NCBI GenBank assembly: GCA_003599275.1
Contig: QZJG01000010.1
Span: 1 to 64,000, forward strand
Origin: Nitrospiraceae bacterium
GTDB taxonomy: Bacteria; Nitrospirota; Thermodesulfovibrionia; UBA6902
Direction: 5' to 3'
DNA length: 64,000 nucleotides
The stretch's first letter is position 1, and every line of letters begins with the position of its first letter. Both the position numbers and the translations under genes were made by a program. Positions 5,201 to 30,281 of this stretch are shown here, piece by piece. A model generated the notes under the pieces. The model was not told the origin of the DNA. It ran no database searches and was given only the letters and a program-made list of their open reading frames with translations.

Positions 5201-5221
5201 TATATTTATTCAGGTAAAATT

Positions 5222-6199: not shown

Positions 6200-6206
6200 G
6201 GAAACT

Positions 6207-7931: not shown

Positions 7932-7952
7932 GTATAAAAATATTTCTAAAGA

Positions 7953-8606
7953 ATGAATAACTGGCTCTCAATTAAGAAACTTTTTATATCAAGTACTGGG
8001 ATATTTATTGGTATTTTTCTACTATCATCTGTGAGTTTCGCTGGCTGGCTTATCTATTACAAGCCGGAATTTAGAGGTAAAGTTATAGGTGCAGAGACAA
8101 AAGAACCGATAGAGGGAGCAGTGGTCGTGGTTGTTTATAAGAAACATTCCTTGATAAGCGGACCTGGTGGCGGATATACATCTGTAATAAAAGTCAAAGA
8201 AACTTTAACGGATAAAAATGGAGAATTTTATTTTTCGCCTTATACCACTTTAATTCAGCCCAATTCAATAGAAGATTATGCGGAGTTTATTATATACAAG
8301 CCCGGCTATGGTAGTTATCCCAACTATCAAGTGACTCCTCGTGGACTTAATGCAGTGAGTGAAGAGTTATTTTTCTCAAAGGGGATCGGAAACACGGGCG
8401 AGTTAGAGGCATTGGTTCAGCGAAAGGTAGAATTGATCAGAGTTACCTTTGGCATTGTGGAGCTTCCGATACTCAAGACATGGGAGGATAGGAATAAAGC
8501 CAATATGATTTCACCAACAGACGATGATAATGAGTGGCCGCTTTTACATGAAATGATTAAAAAAGAAGATCAGTGGTTAGAAAACAATAAAGTATGGAGA
8601 GAGTAG
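7953..8606 (+). CDS. Membrane-anchored or exported protein with carboxypeptidase-regulatory-like domain
   Basis: This 217-residue protein has an N-terminal hydrophobic segment (about residues 12-33) that is either an uncleaved anchor or a signal peptide. The segment from about 39 (FRGKVIGAETKEPIEGAVVV) through LTDKNGEFYFSP and FIIYKPGYGSYP follows the carboxypeptidase regulatory-like (CarboxypepD_reg) beta-sandwich pattern. That pattern is common in exported proteins. The C-terminal third is charged and unrecognised. It lies 21 bp after the FN3/PKD gene and overlaps the next gene by 13 bp, so the three form one unit. No enzymatic motif is seen. Confidence 0.6.
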   Translation: MNNWLSIKKLFISSTGIFIGIFLLSSVSFAGWLIYYKPEFRGKVIGAETKEPIEGAVVVVVYKKHSLISGPGGGYTSVIKVKETLTDKNGEFYFSPYTTLIQPNSIEDYAEFIIYKPGYGSYPNYQVTPRGLNAVSEELFFSKGIGNTGELEALVQRKVELIRVTFGIVELPILKTWEDRNKANMISPTDDDNEWPLLHEMIKKEDQWLENNKVWRE

Positions 8607-10567
8607 TGCATTTTAACTATACGGAAAAATGGTATGTATTTATTTTATTACTTATATTGTGCCAATTCCCTATTTTCGCCGTTGCTTTGGAAACGGATAC
8701 ACATAAGAAAATAAATGAGTACATCACTGCAAATACTCTGAATGGTTTTTCACTTGATGCATATTTGAAAAATCAATTGAATTTTTCAAATGGGATAGAA
8801 GAAGAGTTTACATCAAATAAAACAAAAAAAGTTTGGGAATGGGTGCAGTTCGGTGGCGAATACGAGGACATACCATACTGGTGGATGCCTTACCTTCGGT
8901 CCGTCAACCACTTCCACAATCCTTTAACCGGACAGGGTTTCAGCGGCATATGGGGTACAGAGTTTCTTGCTGGTGAGTCCTCTATTCAATGGTCTCAAGA
9001 ACCCATTGGTACACAAAGTCCTGGAGGGCACTACTCCTGGTTTGATGTAAGGGAGTATTTCTATAACGCTCTAACATCAACTAATAAAACAGATAGAGAG
9101 AAAAATTTTACAGATACTTTCAGAGGGCTTGGGCAACTCATGCATTTAGTCGAGGACTTGTCAGTTCCTGAGCATACGAGAGACGACGGGCACTACATAT
9201 TTTATAATTATGAGAAATGGGTTAAAGAAACTATAAAGACTATTGCAGATATTTCACAGTTCACTCCAATTTATTTTGATTCATCAGCAATTGGGAATCC
9301 TAACCCTCTTGCGCCTGTCCCTGTTGCTAATCTTTTTGACACCAAACAATATAATGGGACAAATCCTATTATAACTACCTATTATTCTCAAAATTATTTT
9401 CAAAGAACCATAGGCCTTTCCGAATATACGAATGCCAATTTTCTGAGCCCTGATACTATGTTAACTGCTGACTTTCCCTATCCTAATTGGTCAAGCATAT
9501 ATGAATATGAAGAGATAATTGACAATACAGGGGAGAAGAGAACATATCTTGGCAAGTTTAAAGATGGTGAAAACATAAATCATCTTGCAGCTGGCAGATT
9601 GTTTTATAAATATCTTCCCTCTCCCCTCAGGCATTTAGGGTTAAAGCTTGATAAACGAGTTTATTCTGACTACGCCCAGAAACTCATCCCTCGCGCCGTA
9701 GGCTACTCGGCAGGGCTTTTGGATTATTTTTTCAGGGGGAAAATGGTGGCAGGGATATCGGAGCTTTTTTATGATAGTTTCTGTAATATCATAGGGATTA
9801 AGATGCCATACATTCAAAATTCTACAAATAAGGATGCCATGGGGCCTGGAAATTTAATAGTCTCCTATCAATATAAGCTGCCAGGAGGTGGAGAATTTAT
9901 TTATGGGACTTCAGACGAGAAACCATTGAATGAAAGCATCGGATCATCATACATAAGCTCTTCAGCATTTACTTTCAATTTCAACAACCCTATTCCGCCA
10001 AATGCTCAGGAGATAAAATTAACTCTTATTTTCAAGGGAAAGCTTGGCAATGAAGGCATCTACCCTTATAATAATGAATTTGCAGTGGCAGCACAGGTAT
10101 TACCCGCGATTAATAATAATTGTTCGGTGACTTACAGAGAGTTTGAATCTCTTGTAATTGTTTATCCTGGTTGGCAGAAGGTTGCCTTTAGTTATTTAAA
10201 GATCAATGGTGAGTATCGTTATGAGCCTTTACCCGAAAATCAGGTTTATGTTTTTGATTATCAGAACGTGCATCCCATTTACATTTTCGAACCTGATACT
10301 GTTATGACTATTTGGTGTGAAGATAGCTATCGTAATTTACCCGTTAAAACAGGTGATTGGGCCAAGACAATACTGTATGATTTTTTTGGGGGCCGTTTAA
10401 GGACAGTGATTTTCAATGGCAGCAAGACTGTTTACGATGACATAACAGGAGAAAATCTTGGACCATGTAATAACTGTAACGATGCTGAGCATATTGAATA
10501 CTTTTCTAAATTTGAACCGCATTGTGAGAGACTTACACCATGGGAGGAACCGCCGCCTCCTCCATAA
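8594..10567 (+). CDS. Exported zinc phospholipase C / S1-P1 nuclease-like protein
   Basis: The 657-residue protein has an N-terminal signal-like segment (hydrophobic about 14-31). Immediately after it, ETDTHKKINEYI places a His (H37) as in zinc-dependent phospholipase C-like proteins. The strongest motif is HLVEDLSVPEHTRDDGHY with H184, D188, H194 and H200, matching the H-x3-D-x5-H metal pattern of Zn-PLC/S1-P1 nuclease folds. Further on, YAQKLIPRAVGYSAGLLDYF is a recognisable block of uncharacterised members. The C-terminal ~230 residues look beta-rich and unassigned, ending in a proline-rich tail. A phospholipase or nuclease activity is inference. The start overlaps the upstream gene; nuoI follows. 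Confidence 0.6.
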   Translation: MERVVHFNYTEKWYVFILLLILCQFPIFAVALETDTHKKINEYITANTLNGFSLDAYLKNQLNFSNGIEEEFTSNKTKKVWEWVQFGGEYEDIPYWWMPYLRSVNHFHNPLTGQGFSGIWGTEFLAGESSIQWSQEPIGTQSPGGHYSWFDVREYFYNALTSTNKTDREKNFTDTFRGLGQLMHLVEDLSVPEHTRDDGHYIFYNYEKWVKETIKTIADISQFTPIYFDSSAIGNPNPLAPVPVANLFDTKQYNGTNPIITTYYSQNYFQRTIGLSEYTNANFLSPDTMLTADFPYPNWSSIYEYEEIIDNTGEKRTYLGKFKDGENINHLAAGRLFYKYLPSPLRHLGLKLDKRVYSDYAQKLIPRAVGYSAGLLDYFFRGKMVAGISELFYDSFCNIIGIKMPYIQNSTNKDAMGPGNLIVSYQYKLPGGGEFIYGTSDEKPLNESIGSSYISSSAFTFNFNNPIPPNAQEIKLTLIFKGKLGNEGIYPYNNEFAVAAQVLPAINNNCSVTYREFESLVIVYPGWQKVAFSYLKINGEYRYEPLPENQVYVFDYQNVHPIYIFEPDTVMTIWCEDSYRNLPVKTGDWAKTILYDFFGGRLRTVIFNGSKTVYDDITGENLGPCNNCNDAEHIEYFSKFEPHCERLTPWEEPPPPP

Positions 10568-10639
10568 AATTAAGGTGAAAGAATAAAGAAGAAAAGCAGG
10601 TAGCTTTTGGCTTTATGGTGGATTAAGGAATCTTTAAAA

Positions 10640-11188
10640 ATGACGACACTGGAATTAGTTAAAAAAATACTGTTCATCGAAATCCTTAAAGGGCTCGCCC
10701 TTACGCTGAAGCATTTATTCACTCCGGCGGTCACAAGGCAATACCCTGCCGAGAAGAGAGAGCCATTCCCCGGCTCGCGGGGACTCCATGCCCTTGTGAG
10801 AGATCCCGAGACGGGCAAGGCCAAGTGTGTAGGCTGCGGCCTCTGTGCGGCCATGTGCCCTTCGCAGTGCATCTATATTTATACAAGCGAGGGCGACGAC
10901 CACAAAAAGGTCGTGGACAGATATGAGGTCGAGGTGCTGCGGTGCGTCTTCTGCGCCCTGTGCGTGGAGGCATGCCCTTTCGGCGCGGTCGCACTTACCG
11001 AGCACTTTGAATATTCAGGCTACACGAGAGAAGAATTCTATTATACGAAGGAACGCCTCCTTGAAAACTGGGACAAATATATGGCGGGCGAAAAAGGCAA
11101 AAAATATTTCGAGAAATTCTGGAGGCCGAAATCCGAAGACTTCGGCGCCCCCTCTGTTTTACACGCGGAAGAGAAGGTGGGGCCATGA
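10640..11188 (+). CDS. nuoI: NADH-quinone oxidoreductase subunit I (2x[4Fe-4S])
   Basis: This ferredoxin-like subunit of the connecting module carries N6a and N6b, passing electrons from NuoG to NuoB. The ATG at 10640 is chosen because AAGGA at 10625-10629 is well spaced and the protein (182 residues) then starts like the family. An in-frame upstream start at 10607 would add 11 unconserved residues. Two CX2CX2CX3C sets are visible: C63/66/69/73 and C102/105/108/112, each followed by P. It follows the three-gene insertion and overlaps nuoJ by 4 bp. Confidence 0.95.
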   Translation: MTTLELVKKILFIEILKGLALTLKHLFTPAVTRQYPAEKREPFPGSRGLHALVRDPETGKAKCVGCGLCAAMCPSQCIYIYTSEGDDHKKVVDRYEVEVLRCVFCALCVEACPFGAVALTEHFEYSGYTREEFYYTKERLLENWDKYMAGEKGKKYFEKFWRPKSEDFGAPSVLHAEEKVGP

Positions 11189-11700
11189 CTTTATCTCAGG
11201 GTTTCTTCGCGTATTTTGCGGGGATGATTACCATATTGTCTCTGCTTGTGGTGACAAGGAAGAACCCGGTCCACAGCGTCCTGTGGATGCTGGTAATGTT
11301 TCTCCACATAGCGGGTCTCTATCTTTTGCTGAATGCCGAGTTTCTGGCCGCCATCCAGATTATCGTATATGCGGGGGCCATTCTCGTTCTGTTCCTCTTT
11401 GTCATCATGCTGCTTAATCTGCGCGGAGAGGAGACTGAAAAGAGGTTCCAGAAGCAGTGGCCCTTCGGTCTCGGGGCTGCAGCGGCGCTGGGCGTTTTTC
11501 TTGTCCTGATAACCGGCAATATCACAGTACTTCCTCCGCCGGGGCCGTACACAGTGGAGGCGATAAGGTCGGAAGGCAGCATAATGACGATAGGAAAGGT
11601 ATTATATACGGATTTCCTGATGCCCTTTGAGATAGCGTCGCTGATATTGCTCGTGGCCATAATAGGTGCGGTAGTTTTGGCAAAGAAGAGACTGGAATAG
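11185..11700 (+). CDS. nuoJ: NADH-quinone oxidoreductase subunit J
   Basis: This 171-residue membrane subunit has five predicted helices. The central IQIIVYAGAILVLFLFVIML is the family hallmark, a pi-bulge-containing helix near the E-channel. It starts inside the nuoI stop (ATGA overlap), indicating translational coupling. nuoK follows 10 bp later. It contributes to the proton path at the base of the membrane arm. Confidence 0.96.
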   Translation: MTLSQGFFAYFAGMITILSLLVVTRKNPVHSVLWMLVMFLHIAGLYLLLNAEFLAAIQIIVYAGAILVLFLFVIMLLNLRGEETEKRFQKQWPFGLGAAAALGVFLVLITGNITVLPPPGPYTVEAIRSEGSIMTIGKVLYTDFLMPFEIASLILLVAIIGAVVLAKKRLE

Positions 11701-11710
11701 GAGGTTTTGA

Positions 11711-12013
11711 TTGGTCCCGTTAAACTGGTATATAATCTTGAGCGCGGTAGTGTTCAGTATAGGCGTGTTCGGTTTTCTTTCGAGGCGCAATTTGATAATG
11801 ATATTTATTTCCATTGAGCTTATGCTGAATTCTGTCAACATAAGCCTTGTGGCCTTCAGTCACTATCTGCAGTCCATGAGGGGACAGATACTCGTATTCT
11901 TCGTCATTACGGTTGCGGCTGCCGAGGCAGCGATTGGGCTGGCAATACTGATAGCGTATTACAGAAATCATCCCACTATCAGGGTGGATGAGATAAATTT
12001 ACTGAAAGGGTAG
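11711..12013 (+). CDS. nuoK: NADH-quinone oxidoreductase subunit K
   Basis: This small MrpC-like membrane subunit has 100 residues and three transmembrane helices. [17 protein letters not shown] contains the conserved membrane glutamate, and a second conserved region, [14 protein letters not shown], carries the second one. The start is TTG at 11711, supported by a strong AGGAGG at 11699-11704 with 6-nt spacing. After it comes a 163-bp gap holding a dispersed repeat before nuoL. Confidence 0.95.
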
Positions 12014-12057
12014 AAAGGTTTAAAACACGTGACAAGGTATGAGATGAGTTCCATGAT

Positions 12058-12140
12058 GTCTTTGCGAGGAAAAAATAGCGACGAAGCAATCTCACGTGAA
12101 AAGAGAGATTGCCACGCCCCCTTCGGGTGCTCGCAATGAC
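12058..12140. repeat. GCAATCTC-type palindromic repeat
   Basis: The nuoK-nuoL gap contains TTTGCGAGG...GCGACGAAGCAATCTC followed by GAGATTGC...GCAATGAC, an imperfect ~80-bp palindrome. A related unit (CATTGCGAGG, GCAATCTC, GCGGATTGC) lies inside the MITE-like element at 37415-37617. Confidence 0.65.
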
Positions 12141-12176
12141 AAGTAATTCATCCGGGAGCTAATTAAGGTATAGCAT

Positions 12177-14099
12177 ATGCTGAAATACACTTTGATTCCA
12201 TTACTGCCGTTACTTTCTTTCATCATCAACATCCTGCTCGGCAGGAACGTTATAAAAGACAAGGCGCACTGGATAGCGGTGCCGGCGGTGTTCGGCTCTT
12301 TCATCCTCGCAGTCGGGGCCTTTATGGACGTGCGCGCAGGGAATGTCATAAATATAAACATCTACGAATGGATCGTCTCCGGTAATTTCCATGTCTCTGT
12401 CGGATTTCTCATAGACCAGCTTACCGCAATAATGCTGATCGTCGTAACGTCCATCAGCACTCTTATTTTCATCTATTCAATAGGCTACATGCATGGAGAC
12501 GGGGGATATTACCGCTTCTTCTCTTATCTGAGCCTCTTTGTATTCTCGATGCTCGTCCTTGTTATGGCGAACAATTTCCTCCTCCTTTATTTCGGATGGG
12601 AGGCGGTCGGCCTCTGCTCGTATTTCCTTATCGGCTTCTGGTTCCACAAGAAGTCCGCTGCCGACGCAGGCAAAAAGGCGTTCATCGTCAACAGGTTCGG
12701 CGACTTCGGTTTCGGCCTTGGTGTCATACTTGTCTTTCTTACATACGGAAGCCTCGAATATGTTGAGGTATTCAGAAATGCAAACAGTGTTATGGGGCAG
12801 ACCATAAATATCTTCGGCAGCGATGTCAGCCTTATCACACTGATATGTCTGCTGCTCTTCTGCGGCGCCGTGGGTAAATCAGCCCAGATGCCGCTTCATG
12901 TATGGCTGCCTGATGCGATGGAAGGCCCGACGCCGGTCTCGGCGCTTATACATGCGGCGACGATGGTCACTGCGGGCGTGTTTATGGTGGCCCGCTGCAA
13001 TCCCCTTTTCAGCCTCTCTCACACGGCAATGAACACAGTGGCAATCGTGGGGGGAGTGACAGCGATATTTGCCGCCTCCATTGGACTTGTGCAAAACGAT
13101 ATTAAACGCGTCATAGCATATTCAACCGTGAGCCAGCTTGGGTACATGTTTTTGGCCCTTGGAGTAGGCGCTTACTCTGCGGGTGTCTTTCATCTTTATA
13201 CCCATGCGTATTTCAAGGCGTTGCTTTTCCTTGGATCGGGAAGCGTCATCCATGCGCTTAGCAATGAGCAGAATATGCAGAAGATGGGCGGATTGAAAAA
13301 ATACATGCCCGTGACTTATACGGTTTTTATATTAGCTACACTGAGCATTACAGGCGTCCCCGGATTCGCGGGCTTCTTCAGCAAGGACGAGATACTCTGG
13401 AGGGCCTATTCAAGCGGAGAACTCGGGAAGTTCCTCTGGCTGCTGGCTACTGTTGCGGCCCTTATGACGGCATTCTATTCATGGAGACTTATTTTCATGA
13501 CATTCCACGGCAAGTTCCGGGGCACGCATGAACAGGAGCATCATCTGCATGAGTCACCCAAAGTAATAACCGTTCCTTTAATGGCGCTTGCTGTTGGGGC
13601 AGTTGCTGCAGGGTGGGTGGGGATCCCGCCGCTGCTTATGGAGCACGGAGACAAAATCGGGGAGTTCCTTGGTCCTGTGCTTGGTCATCCTCATGGCGAA
13701 GGCACCCATGCCGAAGAGCTGATGGTCATGGGCGCATCCATATTTGTTGCGTTGGCGGGATGGTATCTGGCATATGTTATGTACGTGAAGAAACCTTATT
13801 TGCCCGGCGAGCTGGGCTCGAAGTTTTTACCCGTTTACGGCCTGCTGTACAATAAGTACTGGATTGATGAGCTTTACAGCAAGGCCTTTGTCCAGCCTGT
13901 TCTTAAATTGTCGGACAAGGTAATTCTCGGGTTCGTCGATAAAGGAATAATTGAAGGCATTGTAAACGGCGTACCCAACCTGATAGGGGCCTTCGGCAGC
14001 AGTTTAAGAAAGATACAGACGGGGTTATTGTCCAATTACGGACTTGTCATGGCAGCAGGGGCGATAGCGATAATAGGGTACATGATTTTCATGGGATAG
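12177..14099 (+). CDS. nuoL: NADH-quinone oxidoreductase subunit L
   Basis: This is the distal antiporter-like proton-pumping subunit, 640 residues with about 16 membrane helices and the long lateral C-terminal helix region. FGWEAVGLCSYFLIGFW holds the key membrane glutamate. Another family block is KSAQMPLHVWLPDAMEGPTP, with its conserved lysine and WLPDAM. HAATMVTAGVFM and TYAYFK-like HAYFKALLF blocks are typical of NuoL/MrpA. A His-rich stretch (HEQEHHLHESP) sits in a loop near residue 445. The ATG at 12177 gives the usual N-terminus. nuoM follows after a repeat-filled gap. Confidence 0.96.
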   Translation: MLKYTLIPLLPLLSFIINILLGRNVIKDKAHWIAVPAVFGSFILAVGAFMDVRAGNVININIYEWIVSGNFHVSVGFLIDQLTAIMLIVVTSISTLIFIYSIGYMHGDGGYYRFFSYLSLFVFSMLVLVMANNFLLLYFGWEAVGLCSYFLIGFWFHKKSAADAGKKAFIVNRFGDFGFGLGVILVFLTYGSLEYVEVFRNANSVMGQTINIFGSDVSLITLICLLLFCGAVGKSAQMPLHVWLPDAMEGPTPVSALIHAATMVTAGVFMVARCNPLFSLSHTAMNTVAIVGGVTAIFAASIGLVQNDIKRVIAYSTVSQLGYMFLALGVGAYSAGVFHLYTHAYFKALLFLGSGSVIHALSNEQNMQKMGGLKKYMPVTYTVFILATLSITGVPGFAGFFSKDEILWRAYSSGELGKFLWLLATVAALMTAFYSWRLIFMTFHGKFRGTHEQEHHLHESPKVITVPLMALAVGAVAAGWVGIPPLLMEHGDKIGEFLGPVLGHPHGEGTHAEELMVMGASIFVALAGWYLAYVMYVKKPYLPGELGSKFLPVYGLLYNKYWIDELYSKAFVQPVLKLSDKVILGFVDKGIIEGIVNGVPNLIGAFGSSLRKIQTGLLSNYGLVMAAGAIAIIGYMIFMG

Positions 14100-19185: not shown

Positions 19186-20487
19186 TTATTTTCTGCGCAA
19201 TGCCTCTTCTACCGTCTTTATGGCGCAGAACTCTCCGCACATGCTGCACACATGCGACTCTGTCGGCGGGACTTCGGCGCGCCACTGTCTGACCTTGTCG
19301 GGATTCAGAGACAGGGCGATCTGACCGTTCCAGTCCAGCGCCTTTCTCCTTTTGGCCATCTCAATGTCCATTTCAATAGCGCCTTTGACGCCCTTTGCAA
19401 CGTCCGCCGCATGTGCAGCGATTTTTGACGCGATGACCCCTTCAATAACGTCTTCGATATTGGGAAGCCTGATGTGCTCGGACGGCGTAACATAGCAGAG
19501 GAAGTCGGCGCCGGCCGCTCCGGCGATGGCCCCGCCGATGGCCGCTGCAATATGGTCGTAGCCCATCGCGATGTCGGTAACGAGGGGACCGAGGACATAA
19601 AAAGGCGCGCCTTTGCATAGCTCCTTCTGCAACTTTATATTAAGCTCCACCTGATTAAGCGGCACGTGTCCGGGACCTTCAATAATTACCTGAACGCCTG
19701 CCGCAACAGCCCTGTCACGCAATTCACTGAGCGTCAGAAGCTCGTCAATCTGGGTCCGGTCCGTTGCATCGGCAAGACAGCCGGGGCGAGCTCCGTCGCC
19801 GAGGCTCAATGTAAGGTCATATTTTCCGGCCATCTCAAGAAGCCTGTCATATTGCTCATAAAGAGGATTCTCCCTGTTATTGTAAATCATCCATTCGACA
19901 AGGAAGGCCCCGCCCCTGCTGACAATGTCGAGTATGCGCCCGTCTTCACGAAGGGTCTGAATAGTTTTCCTCGTCAGCCCGCAGTGAACGGTCACAAAAT
20001 CAACACCCTGTTTCGCATGATTTTCAATAGCGGCAAAAAGTTCGTCCGCGCTCATCTTTGCGATCGATCCCTTGTCCTCCGCAGCCTTTGCGACCGCCTC
20101 GTAAATGGGAACAGTCCCGACTGCGACAGGTGATTTTCTGAGGAGCAGCTTCCTGATGTCATTTATCGGACCGCCTGTTGAAAGGTCCATAACTGCGTCG
20201 GCACCGTATTTCACCAGCGCATCGAGCTTTTGCATTTCGTCGTCGAGAGATATCTTGTCCCTTGACGTGCCGATGTTGGCGTTTATCTTTGTCTTCAATC
20301 CTCTCCCGATGCCGAGAGGTTTTATGTCATGAAAAGTGTTCCTTGCAATGACCGTGAGACCTGATGCAATGTCCTGTGCAAGTTGCTCCGGCCCGATGTT
20401 CTCATCAAACGCAACCTGTTTCACTTCATCAGTAATAATTCCCTTCCTCGCAAGCTCGATTCGCGTATGCTGTAATGCTTTAGTCAT
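19186..20487 (-). CDS. thiC: Phosphomethylpyrimidine synthase
   Basis: ThiC is a radical SAM enzyme that rearranges aminoimidazole ribotide into hydroxymethylpyrimidine phosphate for thiamine biosynthesis. The 433-residue protein contains MDLSTGGPINDIRKLLLRKS, TVHCGLTRKT, SRGGAFLVEWM and SLGDGARPG. At the C-terminus is the noncanonical CX2CX4C cluster motif in CSMCGEFCAIK. Length is that of the short bacterial form without the N-terminal extension. It sits 12 bp after thiE, and AGGAGAAAAT precedes the ATG. The operon is controlled by a TPP riboswitch upstream of the first gene. Confidence 0.97.
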   Translation of the reverse strand: MTKALQHTRIELARKGIITDEVKQVAFDENIGPEQLAQDIASGLTVIARNTFHDIKPLGIGRGLKTKINANIGTSRDKISLDDEMQKLDALVKYGADAVMDLSTGGPINDIRKLLLRKSPVAVGTVPIYEAVAKAAEDKGSIAKMSADELFAAIENHAKQGVDFVTVHCGLTRKTIQTLREDGRILDIVSRGGAFLVEWMIYNNRENPLYEQYDRLLEMAGKYDLTLSLGDGARPGCLADATDRTQIDELLTLSELRDRAVAAGVQVIIEGPGHVPLNQVELNIKLQKELCKGAPFYVLGPLVTDIAMGYDHIAAAIGGAIAGAAGADFLCYVTPSEHIRLPNIEDVIEGVIASKIAAHAADVAKGVKGAIEMDIEMAKRRKALDWNGQIALSLNPDKVRQWRAEVPPTESHVCSMCGEFCAIKTVEEALRRK

Positions 20488-20499
20488 AATTTTCTCCTT

Positions 20500-21225
20500 T
20501 TAGGTCATTCCCGCGCAGACGGGAATCCAGTCATCATTTATTTCTTCCGCTTTTCCCTTAATATCATCCGCTCCCAAAATCTCCGATATCATTGCAGCTC
20601 CATAAGCCCCTGCCTCCATCACTTCTTTCACTCTTTGGCTTTTTATTCCGCCGACTGCGAAGACGGGGATTTTTACTTTGCTGCAAACATTCTTCAGAAC
20701 GTCTATACCGAGCGGTTTGCCGTATTTCAATTTTGACGGCGTCCGGTAAACCGGGCCGAGGGTCAAAAAATCGGCCCCTGCCTTCTCAGCCGCTTTCGCC
20801 TCTTTTAAAGAATGAGTTGAAGCGCCGACCAGGAGTTTTCTCCCCGCAACCCTTTTCACTATGTCCGGAGTAACACTGTTTTGCGTGAGATGGACTCCAT
20901 CCGCGCCGACCGCAAGGGCAATGTCGAATCTGTCATTGATAAAAAGTTTCGCGTTATACGTTTTAGTCAGCTCTCTCATCTTATATGCAAGTTTCAATAA
21001 TTCACGGGTCCCCAAATCTTTCTCTCTCAATTGTATTGCTTTGACCCCGCCTTTTAATGCCTGCCTGCTGGCTGTTATTAAGTGAGAAGTGGGAAGTGAG
21101 AAGTTAGAAGTTTCTTTAAACTGTTTTCTATCAGTAATCAGATAAAGTCTAAAGCCCAAAGCCTGGAGTCTGTGTTTTGTTTTCTTACTTCTTACTACTG
21201 ACTTCTGACTTCTGGCTTGCTTCAC
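20500..21225 (-). CDS. thiE: Thiamine-phosphate synthase with repeat-derived insertions
   Basis: ThiE joins hydroxymethylpyrimidine diphosphate and thiazole phosphate to thiamine phosphate. The TIM-barrel core is clear: [66 protein letters not shown] and FAVGGIK. Three parts look unlike the family. The first 26 residues are basic and come from AGAAGTCAGAAGT-type repeat DNA. An [13 protein letters not shown] stretch comes from a GAAGTGAGAAG repeat, and the C-terminal [10 protein letters not shown] is encoded by a GTCATTCCCG palindrome. The GTG start overlaps the thiG stop (GTGA). The core appears intact, so the enzyme is probably functional. Confidence 0.9.
20505..20535. repeat. GTCATTCCCG palindrome inside the thiE 3' end
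   Basis: GGTCATTCCCGCGCAGACGGGAATCCAGTC has CATTCCCG/CGGGAAT arms and the same ends as the intergenic copies at 1194 and 2550. Here it is translated on the minus strand as the last residues of ThiE. Confidence 0.65.
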
Positions 21226-21992
21226 AGCATGCCCTCTATCGGGCTGCTTGCAGTCGCATAGAGTTTCTTCTGTATCCTTCCCGCCTTATATGCAAGACGT
21301 CCGGCCATAACGGCGTGTTTCATCGCCTCTGCCATGGCGATCGGGTCTTTCGCACCGGCTATGGCGGTGTTGAGCAATACGGCATCGCATCCGAGCTCCA
21401 TTGCAATCGCAACATCCGAGGCAGTCCCCACTCCGGCATCAACTACGATAGGCACCTTTGCCTGTTCAAGTATTATTTTTATATTGTAAGGGTTCCGTAT
21501 TCCAAGCCCCGATCCGATCGGCGCGGCAAGCGGCATGACAGCGGCAGCTCCGGCATCCACAAGCCTCAGCGCCATAACAGGGTCGTCATTGATATAAGGA
21601 AGGACAATGAATCCTTCTTTTGCAAGAATCTCTGTCGCCTTCAGCGTGGCGCAGGTGTCGGGGAACAGTGTTTTTTCATCGCCTATGACTTCCAGCTTGA
21701 TAAGGTCTGAAACGCCCGCCTCTCTCGCTAGCCGCGCATATCTCAATGCGTCCTCCATTGTGTAACAGCCTGCGGTATTGGGAAGTATTTTGTATTTTTT
21801 TGGGTCGATGTAATCAAAGAGGTTCTCGGACTTTCTGTCGAATATATTTGTCCTTCTTACCGCGACAGTAACAACATCTGCGCCTGATGCTTCAATGGCC
21901 TTTCTCGTCTCCTCGAAGTTCTTATACTTTCCTGTACCGACCCACAGTCGGGACTTGAATTCAATTCCCTTGATTATTAGCTTGTCGTTCAT
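21222..21992 (-). CDS. thiG: Thiazole synthase
   Basis: ThiG condenses deoxyxylulose phosphate, dehydroglycine and ThiS-thiocarboxylate into the thiazole phosphate. The 256-residue TIM barrel shows [27 protein letters not shown], the Schiff-base lysine region [43 protein letters not shown] and [20 protein letters not shown]. The ATG at 21992 has AGGAGG at 21998-22003; an in-frame upstream ATG at 22010 lacks this support. It is coupled to thiE by a 4-bp overlap and follows thiS after a repeat-containing gap. Confidence 0.96.
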
Positions 21993-22003
21993 ATGTTCCT
22001 CCT

Positions 22004-22102: not shown

Positions 22103-22303
22103 TCATCCTCCTCCGACAAAATTCACAACCTCAACCATATCACCGTCTTTAAGGACATACTCATTGAAATTACATTTCTTTATGATTTGCATATTGACCT
22201 CAACAGCGACCCGCGCCGGCTCAATATGCAAAGACTTCAACAAATCGACAACAGTCAAGTTGTCCTGGACTTCCGAATCCGTACCGTTTAATTTAAGCCT
22301 CAT
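22103..22303 (-). CDS. thiS: Sulfur carrier protein ThiS
   Basis: This 66-residue ubiquitin-like sulfur carrier donates sulfur as a C-terminal thiocarboxylate to ThiG. MRLKLNGTDSEVQDNLTVVD starts the beta-grasp fold, and the protein ends VEVVNFVGGG with the essential terminal Gly-Gly. Length is standard. It lies between the thiH-like gene and thiG. No thiF is visible in this window, so the activating enzyme must be encoded elsewhere. Confidence 0.93.
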   Translation of the reverse strand: MRLKLNGTDSEVQDNLTVVDLLKSLHIEPARVAVEVNMQIIKKCNFNEYVLKDGDMVEVVNFVGGG

Positions 22304-22351: not shown

Positions 22352-23650
22352 TCAAATATGAATGTCTCTTTTTCCTGCTTCAATAAGTTTAATTTTCTCA
22401 GCGAGTCCGTTCGCGCTTTTCGCGATCTCCCCATCCAGCAGCTTCTTCAACCGCCCCTTCACTTCATCCGAAGCGCAGTCTTCCATGTATTCCCTGAGAG
22501 AGAGAAGCGCATTCTCCTGACAGAAGTTTTTAATCGCCCCCTTCTCGGCAAGGTGTCTGAATCTCTCCCCGCTTCTTTTCTCTCTGTAGCAGGCGGTGCA
22601 GAGACTCGGCACAAGCCCCAGGTCCGCAATCTTGCCGATGACTTCTTCAAGGCTCCTCGAATCTCCTATCTCAAACTGTTCTGTGTCGCCTTCCTTTATA
22701 TAACCCCGGGGGCTGGTCCTTGATCCGGCGGATATCTGGGAGGCCCCGATGGACAATAATTCATCTCTCAATTCAGCGGGCTCTCTCGTAGAAACCACAA
22801 CTCCGGCATACGGAAGGGCCAGCCGGTAAATCGCAACTATCTTTTTCAGGTCTTCATCGGAAACTCTACGGCATGTATCAGGCAAATTTGCCCCCTGCGC
22901 AGGCTGAAGCCTGGGAACGGAAAGCGTATGGGGCCCGAATCCGTATTTGCTGATCAGCCTTCTGCAATGCGAGATCAGAGCGGCGACTTCCCACCGCCAG
23001 TCATAAAGGCCGAGAAGCACACCCATGCCGACGTCTTCAAACCCTGCCTCGATCGCCTTGTCCATGACTTCTAATCTTGACGCATAATCCGATTTCGGCC
23101 CTGAGGGATGCATTGATCTGTAAGTCGGGATGTGATAGGTCTCCTGAAAGCACTGATATACGCCGATGCCGGAACCCCTGAGCCTCCTGAAATCCTCCAC
23201 ACTCATCGGAGCCGTGTTTGCATGAAGGATCCGGATGTCCGTATTTTTATAGATTGCATCAATAACTTTTTCCAGGTAATCGATGCCTGCCATCTTTGCA
23301 TGTTCACTGGTCACGAGGAGCAGCCTTTTGTATCCCCGCTTTGCAAGTAAGGAAGCTTCTTCCACTGCTTCATTCACACTCAGTGTCTTTCTCCTTGCAT
23401 CCCGGTTGCCTGTTCTGAAACCGCAATAGCCGCAATCATTCACACACTCATTCGACAGATAAAGAGGGGCGAAAAGGACTATTCTTCTGCCGTATACTTT
23501 TTCCTTTACCCTGCGTGCCGTATCCAATATCTCGTCCCATAATTCTTTGTCCCGCAGATCGAGAAGCGCAGAGACCTCTGTGAGATTCAGGACCTGCATC
23601 TCAAGAGATTTGGAAAGGATTTCCCTGATATATGAAGTGTCAGTTTTCAT
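22352..23650 (-). CDS. Radical SAM tyrosine lyase, ThiH position with HydG hallmarks
   Basis: This 432-residue radical SAM enzyme cleaves tyrosine. The CX3CX2C cluster is C69/C73/C76 (NECVNDCGYCGF). By position, first gene after the TPP riboswitch and just before thiS and thiG, it should supply dehydroglycine as 2-iminoacetate synthase. However, it has the C-terminal CX2CX22C (C351, C354, C377, in SLCTACYREKRSG..NFC) and H241 in GPHTLSVPR. These are the ligands of the auxiliary [5Fe-4S] cluster of HydG, absent from E. coli-type ThiH (~377 residues). So it belongs to the HydG-like branch while sitting in a thiamine operon. Thiazole synthesis is the contextual role; CO/cyanide chemistry cannot be excluded. 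Confidence 0.85.
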   Translation of the reverse strand: MKTDTSYIREILSKSLEMQVLNLTEVSALLDLRDKELWDEILDTARRVKEKVYGRRIVLFAPLYLSNECVNDCGYCGFRTGNRDARRKTLSVNEAVEEASLLAKRGYKRLLLVTSEHAKMAGIDYLEKVIDAIYKNTDIRILHANTAPMSVEDFRRLRGSGIGVYQCFQETYHIPTYRSMHPSGPKSDYASRLEVMDKAIEAGFEDVGMGVLLGLYDWRWEVAALISHCRRLISKYGFGPHTLSVPRLQPAQGANLPDTCRRVSDEDLKKIVAIYRLALPYAGVVVSTREPAELRDELLSIGASQISAGSRTSPRGYIKEGDTEQFEIGDSRSLEEVIGKIADLGLVPSLCTACYREKRSGERFRHLAEKGAIKNFCQENALLSLREYMEDCASDEVKGRLKKLLDGEIAKSANGLAEKIKLIEAGKRDIHI

Positions 23651-23677: not shown

Positions 23678-23723
23678 ATAAAAAACCGTATCCCCTGCGG
23701 AGGCATCTCTTCGGGAATACGGT
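23678..23723 (-). terminator. Attenuator terminator of the TPP riboswitch
   Basis: On the minus strand ACCGTATTCCC pairs with GGGGATACGGT (arms at 23713-23723 and 23685-23695, one G:U pair) around a 17-nt loop. TTTTTT follows. It lies between the aptamer and the first structural gene, so TPP binding would be expected to favour termination. Confidence 0.85.
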
Positions 23724-23737
23724 ATTAATAATTACTG

Positions 23738-23830
23738 CCATTCCCTTTCCTGCGCTGGTATTATCCGGTTCAGGTTCAGAGGGTCTTCCCGATGCTTTGG
23801 AAACTCTCAGGCTCTGATGCCTCCCCTAGG
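23738..23830 (-). promoter_or_regulatory. TPP (THI-box) riboswitch aptamer
   Basis: The minus strand shows the conserved THI elements in order: GGGGAGGCATCAGAGCCTGAGA, GACCCTCTGAACCTGAACCGG, then TAATACCAGCGCAGGAAAGGGA. It is preceded by a sigma70 promoter and followed by a terminator hairpin, and it controls the thiH-like/thiS/thiG/thiE/thiC/rsmE unit by transcription attenuation. Confidence 0.95.
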
Positions 23831-23839
23831 GTAGTTTAA

Positions 23840-26034: not shown

Positions 26035-26928
26035 ATGAGGAAGGATTTTTTCAACAAATTTGCGGAGCTGACAGGGAAGGTTTTAGAGCACCTGAAAGGG
26101 ATTGCCCTTGTCATGATTCTCATTATCGCTGTTCTCGGCGTTATTGTCGGCTACAAATATTACAGGCACACACAGGAAGATCCTCAATTCTGCATGTCAT
26201 GTCATCTGATGAAAGAGGCCTTTACGGAGTGGTATGAAGGCAGGCACAGAGGGATAATCTGTCAGAAGTGCCATCAGTTGAGCATACTCGAACAGAACCA
26301 GCTTCTTGCGGCTTATGTTGTAAGGGGCAACAGCAAGACGTTCTCTCAAACCCACGGAAGAGAAAAGCCCTGGACTTCATGCAAGGAATGTCATATGAAT
26401 GAAGCAATTCAGGGGTCTTTGACCCTGAATAAATCCTACGGTCACGCGAGACATGTATTTATACAAAAGGTCGTCTGCAAGACGTGCCATAAAGGCGCGC
26501 TGCATGATTTTCATCCAAATGAAAACGCATGCCGGGATTGCCACCAGGACAAAGGGGTCCACGGACTCGGCATGGAGGCATTCTCGTGCCTCAAGTGCCA
26601 TTCTTATTCGGAGAAAACCCCTTCAATGGTCCCTAAAGACAGATGTGTCGGATGTCATACCGACATGCCGAAAACAGCGCCGATGTCGGGGCTCCTCTGT
26701 CATCAGTGTCACAAGCCGCATGGAGAAATAAAACCAAAGCCCGCTGCATGCGTCAGCGAATGTCATCAGAATGAAACCGCTGTCGGACAGCATGGGTTGC
26801 ATATGAAGAAAGGTCTTGACTGCCTTGACTGTCACAAATCTCATGTGTGGACCGTCGGTCAGGATAAAGCAAAAACCCTCTGCACCCGATGCCATCCCTA
26901 TAAAGAGCCCCGCAAATTTATTTATTAG
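26035..26928 (+). CDS. Membrane-anchored decaheme cytochrome c, NapC/NirT-like N-terminus
   Basis: The 297-residue protein has one N-terminal transmembrane anchor (about 21-42) and ten CXXCH heme sites: CMSCH, CQKCH, CKECH, CKTCH, CRDCH, CLKCH, CVGCH, CHQCH, CLDCH and CTRCH. One additional irregular CVSECH (CX3CH) is present. The first heme region (YYRHTQEDPQFCMSCHLMKE) resembles NapC/NirT/NrfH quinol dehydrogenases, which oxidise membrane quinol and pass electrons into the periplasm. It is longer than NrfH (~150-200 residues, four hemes). It likely feeds the periplasmic redox proteins encoded downstream. Function is inferred from heme content and context. Confidence 0.85.
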   Translation: MRKDFFNKFAELTGKVLEHLKGIALVMILIIAVLGVIVGYKYYRHTQEDPQFCMSCHLMKEAFTEWYEGRHRGIICQKCHQLSILEQNQLLAAYVVRGNSKTFSQTHGREKPWTSCKECHMNEAIQGSLTLNKSYGHARHVFIQKVVCKTCHKGALHDFHPNENACRDCHQDKGVHGLGMEAFSCLKCHSYSEKTPSMVPKDRCVGCHTDMPKTAPMSGLLCHQCHKPHGEIKPKPAACVSECHQNETAVGQHGLHMKKGLDCLDCHKSHVWTVGQDKAKTLCTRCHPYKEPRKFIY

Positions 26929-27036
26929 AACCGTCCTTCTTTTCTTTTTGTAATTCCGCAAAGAAAAATTAATATTTTTGCATCCCTGCAAATTCCCGGC
27001 AGCAATAAAGTTATCAATTTCAACAAGTTAACTGCA

Positions 27037-27050
27037 GGCATAGGATATGC
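27037..27050 (+). promoter_or_regulatory. Candidate sigma-54 (-24/-12) promoter
   Basis: GCAGGCATAGGATATGCATT has GG at 27037-27038 and GC at 27049-27050 with the required 10 bp between them. Flanking bases partly match TGGCAC-N5-TTGCA. It lies ~40 bp before the small membrane-protein gene. A sigma-54-dependent response regulator is encoded 4 kb away. Confidence 0.35.
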
Positions 27051-27089
27051 ATTTGTAAACAGCAGAACAACGAAAGGAGGGTGGGAAAG

Positions 27090-27416
27090 ATGAAAACAGG
27101 AGAAACTGCAAAAAAGGGTTTATATGTGGGCGCAGGCGCAGGGCTCGTACTGTTTGCATTAATTGGCCTGCTACCGGGTTCATTCATTGGTGGGGCGGTT
27201 GGTCTCAGCGTTGCCGGGAGTATATTCGGAATACCAGTAGGCGCACAGTTGATGCCGAGGATTGTAGTTGGAATATTTATGGTCCTGGGGGTAATGACCG
27301 CCGGGTTGGTCTTTGTGGCAGGCAGTTCGCTTGCGGGATGGCTGGCTGGATACGTGATTGATGCAATAAGACATGAAAAGGATGAAGTCACCGATTTGGC
27401 ATCACAGCATAAATAG
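27090..27416 (+). CDS. Small glycine-rich two-helix membrane protein (paralogue 1)
   Basis: The 108-residue protein has two long hydrophobic stretches (about 9-50 and 62-92) rich in Gly/Ala, e.g. KKGLYVGAGAGLVLFALIGL and SLAGWLAGYVIDAI, with a charged C-terminus. ATG 27090 is favoured by AGGAGG at 27075-27080; an upstream GTG at 27081 would overlap the ribosome site. It is clearly related to the protein at 27878-28201 along its whole length (KKGLYVG-x-G-x-GL-x-LFAL-x-GL-x-PGS). Function is unknown; glycine-zipper-like packing suggests oligomerisation. It leads the NrfD gene cluster. Confidence 0.75.
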   Translation: MKTGETAKKGLYVGAGAGLVLFALIGLLPGSFIGGAVGLSVAGSIFGIPVGAQLMPRIVVGIFMVLGVMTAGLVFVAGSSLAGWLAGYVIDAIRHEKDEVTDLASQHK

Positions 27417-27441
27417 AATCATCTCATAGAAGGAGAGTCAT

Positions 27442-27798
27442 ATGAAATTTGTCGCAAGCAGGACAACGGTATCTTTAAGGGGAAACAAAAAGCCGTGTGA
27501 TGAGGCAAGAGAAGATGAGTTGACGCCGCTGGATTTCAGGACCGTTAAGACGCTTGAAGCTGCCAAAAAGAAGGTGTGGTACAAGATGTGGCTTGAAGGA
27601 GGCGCTAATCACAGAGAAGAAGGAGGTGTAATTGTATGCGATAAAAAAGAGAAAGAAAAACAATGGGTCGTTGATATTGAGACACTGGAAGAGCTTATTA
27701 ATTTTCAGAACAGATATGGCGCAATCGTGATTATGGACAGCGCGCCGTATAAAGAAACAAGAAAAGAATTAAAGATACTTCGGCCTGAAGAAAAATAA
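27442..27798 (+). CDS. Conserved-looking hypothetical protein, 118 residues
   Basis: This charged soluble protein has no membrane segment or metal motif. It is preceded by GAAGGAGAG, 25 bp after paralogue 1, and sits between two homologous membrane-protein genes. The sequence has an alpha/beta look: QWVVDIETLEELINFQNRYG and AIVIMDSAPYKETRKELK. No family was recognised. It is an authentic gene by position, ribosome site and codon use; function unknown. Confidence 0.65.
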   Translation: MKFVASRTTVSLRGNKKPCDEAREDELTPLDFRTVKTLEAAKKKVWYKMWLEGGANHREEGGVIVCDKKEKEKQWVVDIETLEELINFQNRYGAIVIMDSAPYKETRKELKILRPEEK

Positions 27799-27877
27799 TA
27801 ATCGTACATGGAGCAGCGTACAAAAATAGAAATACACGCTACACGCTGAGCGATGAATAAAAAAGGAGGAAGCGGAA

Positions 27878-28201
27878 ATGGAAACAAAAGAAATGGCAAA
27901 GAAAGGCTTATACGTTGGAACAGGGATCGGGCTTATCTTATTCGCACTGGTCGGGTTGTTCCCCGGCTCTATGGTCGGAGGCGTGATAGGGCTTAAAATT
28001 GCCGGAAGCATGTTGGGAGCGCCCGTACATGCAACTGTATTGGCCCGGTTGATAGTTGCAGCATTCATGATTATCGGGGTATTGACAGCCGCGATAGCTT
28101 TCATTCTTGGAACGGGTATTGTGGGATGGTTGGTCGGCAGCGTAGCTGACACGGTAAAAGCCCGCCATGAAGTCCCGGCGGAAGCGGCGGCAAAGCGCTA
28201 A
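27878..28201 (+). CDS. Small glycine-rich two-helix membrane protein (paralogue 2)
   Basis: This 107-residue paralogue of the protein at 27090-27416 begins METKEMAKKGLYVGTGIGLI and contains LVGLFPGSMVGGVIGLKIAG and a second helix pair around LTAAIAFILGTGIVGWLVG. It ends in a hydrophilic tail. It is preceded by AAAGGAGGAAG. A gene duplication bracketing the 118-residue ORF is the simplest reading. It immediately precedes the NrfD-like gene, with a 12-bp-stem hairpin between them. Confidence 0.75.
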   Translation: METKEMAKKGLYVGTGIGLILFALVGLFPGSMVGGVIGLKIAGSMLGAPVHATVLARLIVAAFMIIGVLTAAIAFILGTGIVGWLVGSVADTVKARHEVPAEAAAKR

Positions 28202-28206
28202 TTATA

Positions 28207-28244
28207 CGGCGTGCAGCGCATTGTTGCCGGGCCGCTGCACGCCG
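28207..28244. other. Intra-operon hairpin before the NrfD-like gene
   Basis: CGGCGTGCAGCG (28207-28218) pairs perfectly with CGCTGCACGCCG (28233-28244), a 12-bp stem with a 14-nt loop. No U-run follows, and the NrfD Shine-Dalgarno AAAGGAGG is 4-11 nt downstream. It could set differential mRNA stability rather than terminate. Confidence 0.6.
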
Positions 28245-28262
28245 ACGAAAGGAGGAAGGAAC

Positions 28263-29513
28263 ATGCCTGATGATTCTAAATCGTTAAGGGTATCTGAAAT
28301 AGTAAAGGACGTTACCAGGTCTTTTGATTCTACTGTTGCAACAACGTGGTATTCCAATATCCTGGAATTTCTCTCTGGCAGCAGGTCATTTTATGTGCTT
28401 TTGATCTTAAGCGGAATTCTTATTTTTACTTCAGCTATGTCAGGAGTATATGCGATGAACATGGGTTATCGTCACGCCTACGGGGTCACGCGCGAGATAT
28501 CATGGGGAATATTGATCTCGACATATATCTTTTTTGTTGTGACATCCACGGGGCTCTGTATTGTGTCTTCCATAGGACACGTATTCGGAGTGAGGGACTT
28601 CATGCCGATCGCGAAACGGACCGTCTTTCTTGCAATTGTCACCATCCTTGCCGGGTTTACCGTCATCTTCTTTGATGTTGAGAACCCGCTCAGGATGGCC
28701 GTCTACAATGCCATTTCTCCAAACCTGACATCTAACATATGGTGGATGGGGACGTTATACGGCGCATACATGGTTTTCATGATCGTCGAATTCATCCTGC
28801 TCCTGTTGGGCAGCCATAAATACGCGATGTATTCAGGGCTGTTAGGGCTTCTATCGGGGATTGCGGCGCACAGCAACCTCGGAGCGATCTTCGGGATGCT
28901 TCACGGCAGGGAATACTGGTACGGCCCTTATATGCCCATATATTTTATCGCCTCGGCAATGGCATCCGGATGTGCCGCGATTATATTCTTCACGTATCTG
29001 GGATACAAGGTCAATAATGAAATGATGGACAAACCGATGGAGAGATCGCTGGAGGCTGTCGCCAGGTTATGCACGCTTATGGTTGCAGTAATTATATTCT
29101 TTACAGCCTGGAAGATTATTACAGGGCTTGTCGCTGCGCCGGGAAAGGTTGAAGCCATCAAGGCCATGCTCAGCGGCCCGTATTCACTTAACTTCTGGGT
29201 TTTTGAGGTGCTGGCAGGGATGGTTGCGCCGTTTTTCCTGCTGCTGCGCTCCAGGGGCAAAAATATCAACATGATGTTTATTGCTTCGGCCCTGATGATA
29301 ACCGGCATCTTTATAATGAGGTATGACCTGGTGGTAGTCGGTCAGATTGTGCCGTCACATCATGAGCTCGGCGTTATTGACAGTCCGTCATTGCTCCCCT
29401 ACAGCCCCTCTCTTTATGAAATTATGATCGTCCTGGGCGGTATGGGCATTGTGGCAGTGAGCTTTCTCATCGGCGAAAGAATATTCAAAGGGCATAAAAG
29501 CGAGGTCCACTGA
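28263..29513 (+). CDS. NrfD/PsrC-family quinone-interacting membrane subunit
   Basis: The 416-residue protein has about ten transmembrane helices and belongs to the NrfD/PsrC/DmsC-like family. It exchanges electrons between menaquinone and a periplasmic ferredoxin subunit. Supporting segments include GILIFTSAMSGVYAMNMGYR, EISWGILISTYIFFVVTSTG, SNIWWMGTLYGAYMVFMIVE and IVPSHHELGVIDSPSLLPYSPS near the C-terminus. ATG 28263 is chosen over an upstream in-frame start because of AAAGGAGGAAGG. The ferredoxin gene follows after 12 bp, the usual partner arrangement. No molybdopterin or other catalytic subunit is encoded with it. Confidence 0.87.
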   Translation: MPDDSKSLRVSEIVKDVTRSFDSTVATTWYSNILEFLSGSRSFYVLLILSGILIFTSAMSGVYAMNMGYRHAYGVTREISWGILISTYIFFVVTSTGLCIVSSIGHVFGVRDFMPIAKRTVFLAIVTILAGFTVIFFDVENPLRMAVYNAISPNLTSNIWWMGTLYGAYMVFMIVEFILLLLGSHKYAMYSGLLGLLSGIAAHSNLGAIFGMLHGREYWYGPYMPIYFIASAMASGCAAIIFFTYLGYKVNNEMMDKPMERSLEAVARLCTLMVAVIIFFTAWKIITGLVAAPGKVEAIKAMLSGPYSLNFWVFEVLAGMVAPFFLLLRSRGKNINMMFIASALMITGIFIMRYDLVVVGQIVPSHHELGVIDSPSLLPYSPSLYEIMIVLGGMGIVAVSFLIGERIFKGHKSEVH

Positions 29514-29525
29514 GGAGGTGAAAAA

Positions 29526-30281
29526 ATGAAATTTCCAAAACTTGATACTGAAAATCTGAAGAAAGAAAATTCCGCTCAGGTCCCGATGATTGAACGCCGG
29601 GAGTTTCTCAGAATGGGCCTTATCATAACAGGCGTCTTTGCGGGCGGGACCATTCTGTCTGCTGTCCCGCATATGAATAAAGTCTTTGCATCATCACGGG
29701 AGACTGCCGGCAAGTATCCGTATAAACCTCATTACAGTATGGTGATAAGGCAGGACCGCTGCATCGATTGCGAGAGGTGCCTTGAGGCATGCATTATAAC
29801 AAACGACGTCCCTGACTACGGTTACCGCACTGCGATACTTCAAAGAGAAGTCCCGGACGCCGTAGGGCAAAAGCGGGAGTTCATCCCCGTGCTATGCAAC
29901 CAGTGCAACAACCCTCCCTGCGTCAGGGCCTGTCCGGTAAAGGCAACTTACAAGGACAAACAAACAGGCATCGTGATGATGGATTACACAAAATGCATCG
30001 GCTGCAAGGTATGTGTTATGGCTTGCCCGTATAACGCAAGATACTTCAACGAAGAGAGGCACTCTATCGACAAATGCAATTTCTGCTTTGATACCCGGCT
30101 TTCAAAAGGGGAAAGTCTTACTGCATGCGCAGCCGCATGTCCGGCAGGCGTCCGCGTCTTCGGCGACCTCTCGGACCCGGGCAGTAACGTTTACGGACTG
30201 GTCCACCAGATTGAAAAACCGGTATGGGTCCTGCGCCCCGAGGTCGGCGCAAAACCGAATGTATTTTATATGAAAGGGTAA
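29526..30281 (+). CDS. Tat-exported ferredoxin subunit (4x[4Fe-4S], NrfC/PsrB-like)
   Basis: The 251-residue iron-sulfur protein has a twin-arginine-like signal (IERREFLRMGLIITGVF). Four cluster-binding groups follow: CIDCERCLEAC, CNQCNNPPCVRAC, CIGCKVCVMAC, and a last set C-x2-C...C-x3-C (KCNFC, TACAAACPAG). This is the NrfC/PsrB/HybA-type electron-transfer subunit that docks to NrfD on the periplasmic face. A GAGGAGG precedes the ATG. The partner genes are NrfD upstream and a nonaheme cytochrome 11 bp downstream, so electrons probably pass between quinone and cytochrome c. Confidence 0.9.
   Translation: MKFPKLDTENLKKENSAQVPMIERREFLRMGLIITGVFAGGTILSAVPHMNKVFASSRETAGKYPYKPHYSMVIRQDRCIDCERCLEACIITNDVPDYGYRTAILQREVPDAVGQKREFIPVLCNQCNNPPCVRACPVKATYKDKQTGIVMMDYTKCIGCKVCVMACPYNARYFNEERHSIDKCNFCFDTRLSKGESLTACAAACPAGVRVFGDLSDPGSNVYGLVHQIEKPVWVLRPEVGAKPNVFYMKG

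Follow-up and report, generated by a model that had tools for sequence, protein, structure and literature searches.

A HydG-type tyrosine lyase as the proposed iminoacetate synthase of a TPP-riboswitch-controlled thiamine operon

The thiamine operon of a Nitrospiraceae bacterium contains, directly behind its TPP riboswitch, a gene for a protein with the full architecture of HydG. This protein, P0001, is very probably the organism's iminoacetate (dehydroglycine) synthase, and thus would fill the role of ThiH. Activity as a dehydroglycine synthase is the reading that most likely follows from the chemistry of the family together with the logic of the genomes. By the features tested, P0001 differs from the usual HydG as well as from the usual ThiH. 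The window analysed is a stretch of 64,000 nucleotides from contig QZJG01000010.1, and its features are collected in Table 1 with those of related loci.

The protein and its operon

The interval named in the original prediction stood as an open reading frame, but its strand, which had been omitted, is minus: the plus strand holds stops, and the gene is the complement. The motifs ascribed to the protein were all found, namely the radical SAM CX3CX2C (C69, C73 and C76), the C-terminal CX2CX22C (C351, C354 and C377) and H241 within GPHTLSVPR. A misread frame was ruled out, the reading frame, fold and conservation all being clean. P0001 scored 429.7 bits against the NCBIfam HydG model TIGR03955, above the cut-off of 312.15, and 300.8 bits against the ThiH model TIGR02351, below the cut-off of 380. 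The closest PDB sequences were two HydG structures, 4wcx and 4rtb, followed by the ThiH structure 7pd1. An AlphaFold model built on an alignment of 50 sequences (mean pLDDT 93.3) superposed on HydG 4wcx over the whole chain (TMq 0.96, 442 columns) and on ThiH 7pd1 over 350 columns (TMq 0.76). This gap is explained by the C-terminal cluster domain, which is absent from ThiH.

The gene had been predicted to be the first after a TPP riboswitch and to lie upstream of thiS and thiG, and profile matches bore this out. The order on the minus strand is riboswitch, P0001 gene, thiS, thiG, thiE and thiC. The riboswitch lies on the same strand as the gene, 79 bases upstream of its start codon. The intrinsic-terminator hairpin 3' of the aptamer has a predicted folding energy of about -20.6 kcal/mol, and its loop contains GATGCCTCC, a 9-base perfect complement of GGAGGCATC on the 5' side of the aptamer (23824-23816). 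Judged from the sequence, GATGCCTCC is a ready-made antiterminator and the expression platform is intact. The reading frame of thiG is still open at a TTG upstream of its ATG, at 22010.

Inspection by eye added two observations on the window. At its C-terminal end, the thiE frame seems to read through a dispersed palindromic repeat, and a piece resembling this, VIPTEVGIQ, occurs inside the HypC-HydE-HydG frame of locus L085, which is described below. Elsewhere in the window, genes for a multihaem cytochrome c, an NrfD-like membrane protein and a 4Fe-4S protein are clustered; by their apparent content these probably form a quinone-linked electron transfer unit.

Table 1. Positions of the features discussed, in the window and at related loci
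Feature	Sequence	Position	Strand	Basis or remark
HydG-type tyrosine lyase P0001, proposed iminoacetate (dehydroglycine) synthase	window	22352..23650	-	432 aa, ATG start
TPP riboswitch aptamer	window	23730..23837	-	RF00059, 64.4 bits, gathering threshold 54.3
Expression platform	window	23680..23723	-	terminator hairpin 23723-23685, T run 23684-23680
Antiterminator element GATGCCTCC	window	23699..23707	-	in terminator hairpin loop
thiS, sulfur carrier protein	window	22103..22303	-	TIGR01683, 72.5 bits, cut-off 37.45
thiG, thiazole synthase	window	21222..21995	-	PF05690, 377.6 bits; ATG start
thiE, thiamine phosphate synthase	window	20500..21225	-	TIGR00693, 192.4 bits, cut-off 145.1
thiC, phosphomethylpyrimidine synthase	window	19186..20487	-	NF009895, 629.7 bits, cut-off 410
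Repeat-like C-terminal end of thiE frame	window	20500-20540		by eye
Cytochrome c, NrfD-like and 4Fe-4S gene cluster	window	26035-30281	+	by eye
thi-operon copy without auxiliary motif	L082 (genome G054)	5729-7066	-
HypC-HydE-HydG single frame	L085	6285-9062	-	926 aa
HypC-HydE-HydG single frame	L088	826-3654	-	943 aa
HypC-HydE fusion and HydG beside [NiFe]-hydrogenase subunits	L209 (genome G442)	6436-9155, 10395-12468	-
HypC-HydE fusion and HydG beside maturation protease and HypB	L208 (genome G434)	4554-7739	+

Conservation of the thiamine link and the search for hydrogenase partners

We examined a set of 41 genomes that comprises the organism's own genome, G000 (88.6% complete), and its relatives. 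An orthologue of P0001 with 69% identity or more was present in 31 of the 41, and thiS and thiG adjoin the gene in all 31 (30/30 at loci L002-L031, plus G031). Since the motif and the gene order recur in 31/31 orthologues, the arrangement does not reflect chance. The riboswitch was likewise conserved. In three sets of loci, which partly come from the same genomes, a TPP riboswitch scored over threshold at 17 of 20 (absent from L013, L019 and L020), 14 of 16 (absent from L029 and from L024, which is at a contig end) and 11 of 12 (absent from L104).

A scan of GTDB species genomes yielded at least 558 confirmed relatives, of which the best 80 were analysed. Among these 80, the gene was adjacent to thiG in 42 and to hydF in 24, to both in none and to neither in 14. 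Twelve of the 14 were in genomes with HydF elsewhere; of the others, L156 adjoins a ThiS-ThiF fusion and L168 (the same locus as L209) is of the [NiFe] kind described below. HydF was searched for in 47 genomes from these best 80 and was found in 37. The ten without it were nine thi-linked genomes and the genome of L168. Among the best 80 of at least 558 relatives, the thi-linked genomes bear names from Nitrospirota, 'Deltaproteobacteria' (Myxococcota), Proteobacteria (Pseudomonadota), Bacillota and some Deferribacteres. In family f24, the gene adjoins a ThiS-ThiF fusion in 6/6 genomes.

Only one of the ten thi-linked genomes searched contained HydF, that of Moorella mulderi DSM 14980. There, the thi-operon copy L108 comes after a TPP riboswitch, thiE, thiS and thiG, and no canonical ThiH over cut-off was found in this genome. 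A second copy, L207, grouped with HydG 4wcx in the 131-row tree described below, and its neighbourhood resembles hydE-hydG by eye. With a thi-operon copy and a HydG-branch copy, this cultured bacterium is a natural two-copy test case.

In G000, one HydG-family match and one ThiH-family match were obtained, and both were the same gene. No second gene of the ThiH/HydG family was found in this 88.6% complete genome, and a separate ThiH or ThiO was rejected there, none being over cut-off. Because of this level of completeness, the absence of HydF or ThiH from G000 alone is weak evidence, and the argument is built on the set of 41 genomes. In these, neither HydF nor ThiO was found over cut-off (0/41 each). 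HydA (TIGR02512) was found in 0/64 HydF-less carriers of a HydG-family gene, G000 among them, and in 5/5 HydF-bearing genomes used as a control. The same picture was obtained in a phylum sample of 395 genomes, in which HydG-family matches were counted at E <= 1e-80: 53 genomes carried a HydG-family gene (52 over cut-off), eight carried HydF, all of them together with HydG, and 45 of the 53 carriers were without HydF. TIGR03955 was passed by 44 of these 45, and so the model labels the thi-linked branch as HydG. ThiH and HydG have been described as similar enough to confuse phylogenetic profiling (PMC3226654).

The original prediction had offered two readings, a HydG-like enzyme serving as iminoacetate synthase or one enzyme serving two pathways. 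The former is strongly supported by the lack of HydF, HydA, ThiO and a second ThiH/HydG gene at the scopes given above, and by the conservation of the TPP riboswitch and thi operon across orthologues. The latter found no support as far as the H-cluster is concerned, since an [FeFe]-hydrogenase that the enzyme could serve is lacking. Of the two outcomes that the prediction had named as refuting it, neither came up: a distinct ThiH or ThiO together with HydF and HydA was not found, and the tree described below keeps P0001 apart from canonical ThiH.

Phylogeny, tyrosine pocket and auxiliary-cluster site

To place P0001 among its relatives we built a quick tree of all 131 rows, and a careful tree with a topology test on 81 rows, which left out near-copies, thinned clades, fragments and L082. 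The outgroup of the 131-row tree consisted of nine canonical ThiH sequences, 7pd1 included. In this tree, the thi-linked and f24 rows lay apart from all hydrogenase-linked rows (SH-aLRT 100 for the hydrogenase-linked branch). In the 81-row tree without L082, the thi and f24 rows formed one group (bootstrap 94, SH-aLRT 100, present in 96% of bootstrap trees). P0001 did not fall among the canonical ThiH, and CX2CX22C and the histidine were lacking in all nine of those, in agreement with the earlier claim that E. coli-type ThiH is devoid of the motif.

The position of the thi-linked rows differed between the trees: they were basal in the 131-row tree, with L082 in, and inside HydG in the 81-row tree, with L082 out. 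The basal position favours the thi-linked branch as the ancestral one, from which HydG was recruited for hydrogenase maturation. The nested position speaks against this, and forcing the hydrogenase-side rows into one clade was not rejected (p-AU 0.342, 81 rows); the ThiH outgroup is on a long branch. We consider the thi-ancestral origin possible, while leaning slightly away from it; in the reverse course of events, thiamine synthesis would have taken HydG back.

The two sides also differ in a residue fingerprint, counted without L082 and with gaps skipped. Positions 143, 164 and 285 are H, V and V in 58/58 filled thi-side rows versus N, T and I in 57/57 hydrogenase-side rows. At position 141, I stands in 57 of the 58 thi-side rows and M in the remaining one, compared with R in 57/57 on the hydrogenase side. 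P0001 carries I141, H143 and V164 and not the R/N/T of the HydG branch. Positions 141 and 143 are near N145, the site of the tyrosine-carboxylate contact made by E158 in ThiH. Two other assignments were tried and rejected. HydG 4rtb from Carboxydothermus was considered as the thi kind, as it has no glutamate at TcThiH position 128 (like P0001), but its R/N fingerprint places it on the hydrogenase side. The ThiH-type E158 does not discriminate between thi and hyd rows, with E in 10/47 Hyd-linked rows and N in 53/53 filled thi rows.

Five tyrosine-binding residues that make phenolate and amino contacts are common to ThiH and HydG (PMC9046217). T299, R300, R306, S318 and S321 of TcThiH correspond to T288, R289, R295, S307 and S310 of P0001. 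Where ThiH has the carboxylate contact E158, P0001 has N145. In HydG, a glutamate at position 128 is described as offsetting the absence of this residue (PMC9046217); position 128 is V in P0001 and likewise in 34/47 Hyd-linked rows.

P0001 thus shares with HydG (TIGR03955; 4wcx, 4rtb) the radical SAM TIM barrel, the C-terminal CX2CX22C domain, the dangling-iron histidine and the tyrosine pocket. Unlike HydG, it has no HydF or HydA partners, is encoded in a TPP-controlled thi operon, departs from the hydrogenase-side fingerprint and belongs to a separate group. With ThiH (TIGR02351; 7pd1) it has in common the operon position, the TPP control, the tyrosine-binding residues and, presumably, the reaction. 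It is set apart from ThiH by its score below the family cut-off, by the C-terminal cluster domain and by the asparagine in place of E158. The glycine oxidase ThiO would fill the same metabolic step and, as noted above, was over cut-off in none of the 41 genomes.

In HydG, the histidine holds a dangling iron, and canonical ThiH works without an auxiliary cluster. Hydrogenase maturation requires the auxiliary cluster of HydG (PMC9431212), and the dangling iron and an Fe(CO)2CN synthon have been described (PMC6212873). CX2CX22C and the histidine were kept in 52 of 54 distinct thiS/thiG-linked rows, all but L082 and L166 (a fragment), and in 6/6 ThiF-linked f24 rows, compared with 0/9 canonical ThiH. 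The ligands were retained at identities as low as about 50%. Estimated from ten genus- and family-level orthologues, and rough because synonymous sites are near saturation, pN/pS was 0.158 for the cluster-binding stretch (residues 346-382), 0.163 for the barrel and 0.217 for the tail (383-432). The site is therefore constrained in these orthologues although no [FeFe]-hydrogenase (HydA) was found in the HydF-less carriers searched. Because the ligands are kept and purifying selection is as strong as that on the barrel, the auxiliary cluster is probably functional in thi-linked members. Retention of the histidine, and not of the cysteines alone, points to a dangling iron. At L082, a thi-operon member under TPP control, H241 and the exact CX2CX22C are gone, and its row lies on a long branch; either the site is dispensable for the thiamine role in some lineage, or L082 is unusual.

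These data bear on three other accounts of P0001. That it is a relocated ordinary HydG, which matures an [FeFe]-hydrogenase and stands in the thi operon by chance, agrees with its score over the HydG cut-off, its HydG 4wcx fold and its auxiliary-cluster ligands. This account is extremely improbable, and for practical purposes refuted, since HydF and HydA are absent at the scopes searched; the thi linkage in every orthologue, its recurrence in several phyla and the separate grouping of the thi members in the 81-row tree also oppose it. Alternatively, P0001 may be bifunctional and make not only dehydroglycine for thiamine but also CO and/or cyanide that would be used elsewhere, for instance in [NiFe]-hydrogenase as its CO ligand. 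The conserved cluster ligands and dangler-iron histidine would suit such an enzyme, HypD, HypE and HypF are present in G000, and where [NiFe]-hydrogenases obtain their CO is described as known in part only (PMC6802093). However, G043 (97% complete) carries a thi-side member, and a search of this genome found none of HypF, HypE and HypD, so that this member cannot depend on [NiFe] maturation. The R/N of the HydG branch at 141 and 143 is also missing, and we regard bifunctionality as very unlikely.

A third account accepts the iminoacetate synthase and takes its auxiliary site for a remnant, or for a purely structural cluster without chemistry. It draws on canonical ThiH, which works with the motif lacking in 9/9 sequences, and on the loss of the motif from L082 within a thi operon. 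We consider it unlikely, though it deserves more weight than the preceding two, given that motif and histidine persist in nearly all thiS/thiG-linked and all ThiF-linked rows down to about 50% identity, that constraint on the cluster stretch equals that on the barrel, and that the histidine, implying a dangling iron, is kept besides the cysteines.

As an iminoacetate synthase, P0001 would act by the established chemistry of ThiH and HydG. The [4Fe-4S] cluster of the CX3CX2C motif would cleave SAM, and a 5'-deoxyadenosyl radical would abstract hydrogen from tyrosine bound by T288, R289, R295, S307 and S310. Tyrosine would then yield p-cresol and dehydroglycine, the latter of which would pass to ThiG to be joined with DXP and ThiS-thiocarboxylate to form the thiazole. 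Dehydroglycine hydrolyses and needs protection between ThiH and ThiG (PMC9046217). C351, C354, C377 and H241 may bind a [4Fe-4S] cluster that, as in HydG, has a dangling iron. By analogy, this iron could in the thi branch hold or gate dehydroglycine until ThiG takes over, with no Fe(CO)2CN synthon being formed; this assignment is uncertain. The change from R/N to I/H at 141 and 143 is proposed to damp the breakdown of dehydroglycine to CO and cyanide.

A [NiFe]-linked HydG branch and wider meaning

A HydG with the R/N fingerprint was present in 8/8 genomes of family f28, four of which are 95-100% complete and the others 70-81%. HydF, HydA, HypF and HypD were not found in any of the eight, and no HypE was over cut-off; four gave HypE-family matches of 58-119 bits, below the cut-off and similar to those in some genomes with true HypE. 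At L083, L085, L087 and L088, HydG follows an apparent [NiFe]-hydrogenase operon of group 3-like type, which also encodes a maturation protease and a HypC-HydE fusion. At L085 and L088, HypC, HydE and HydG form a single frame (Table 1), and the three domains of the L085 fusion were confirmed by profile. The hydrogenase large subunit keeps RICGIC and DPCISC in 3/3 f28 loci checked. Similar arrangements were seen at L209 and L208 (Table 1), in whose genomes HydF, HypF and HypD were not found and no HypE was over cut-off. The genome of L208 carries both this [NiFe]-linked kind of HydG and a thi-operon copy. Judged from this gene content, HydG and HydE may provide a route by which the Fe(CO)(CN)2 centre of [NiFe]-hydrogenase is made. 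No description of HydG in [NiFe]-hydrogenase operons, or of HydG-type enzymes in thi operons, was found in the open-access PMC literature, outside of which subscription papers and preprints largely lie.

A further variant was noticed in family f12 (genus g33), where HydG lies beside HydF at L047, L049, L050, L051 and L053. In these five Hyd-linked rows the pocket residues are altered (T to A, S to D and S to T), and the second auxiliary-cluster cysteine is replaced by G in four of the five. HydA was present in both f12 genomes searched. Going by these replacements, the substrate or chemistry of the f12 HydG may differ.

Tentatively, and with some doubt, the HydG fold could be seen as a supplier of general use that serves three separate clients: the vitamin B1 thiazole, where the iron of the thi branch would hold dehydroglycine for ThiG, the [FeFe] H-cluster, and the Fe(CO)(CN)2 centre of a [NiFe]-hydrogenase in genomes that lack HypD, HypE and HypF. 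The HydF-less, [NiFe]-linked branch is perhaps a larger lead than the thi branch, being a possible further source of CO and cyanide ligands. For the phylum, the rule that HydG means [FeFe]-hydrogenase is broken. With 45 of 53 carriers lacking HydF, annotation and surveys of hydrogen metabolism that are based on HydG are wrong there. The same fold and ligands with another client offer a natural contrast for finding the residues responsible for converting dehydroglycine to CO and cyanide, and a single cultured bacterium, Moorella mulderi, contains both kinds of enzyme. These findings also allow a test of whether thiamine synthesis or hydrogenase maturation was the use for which the auxiliary iron site first evolved.
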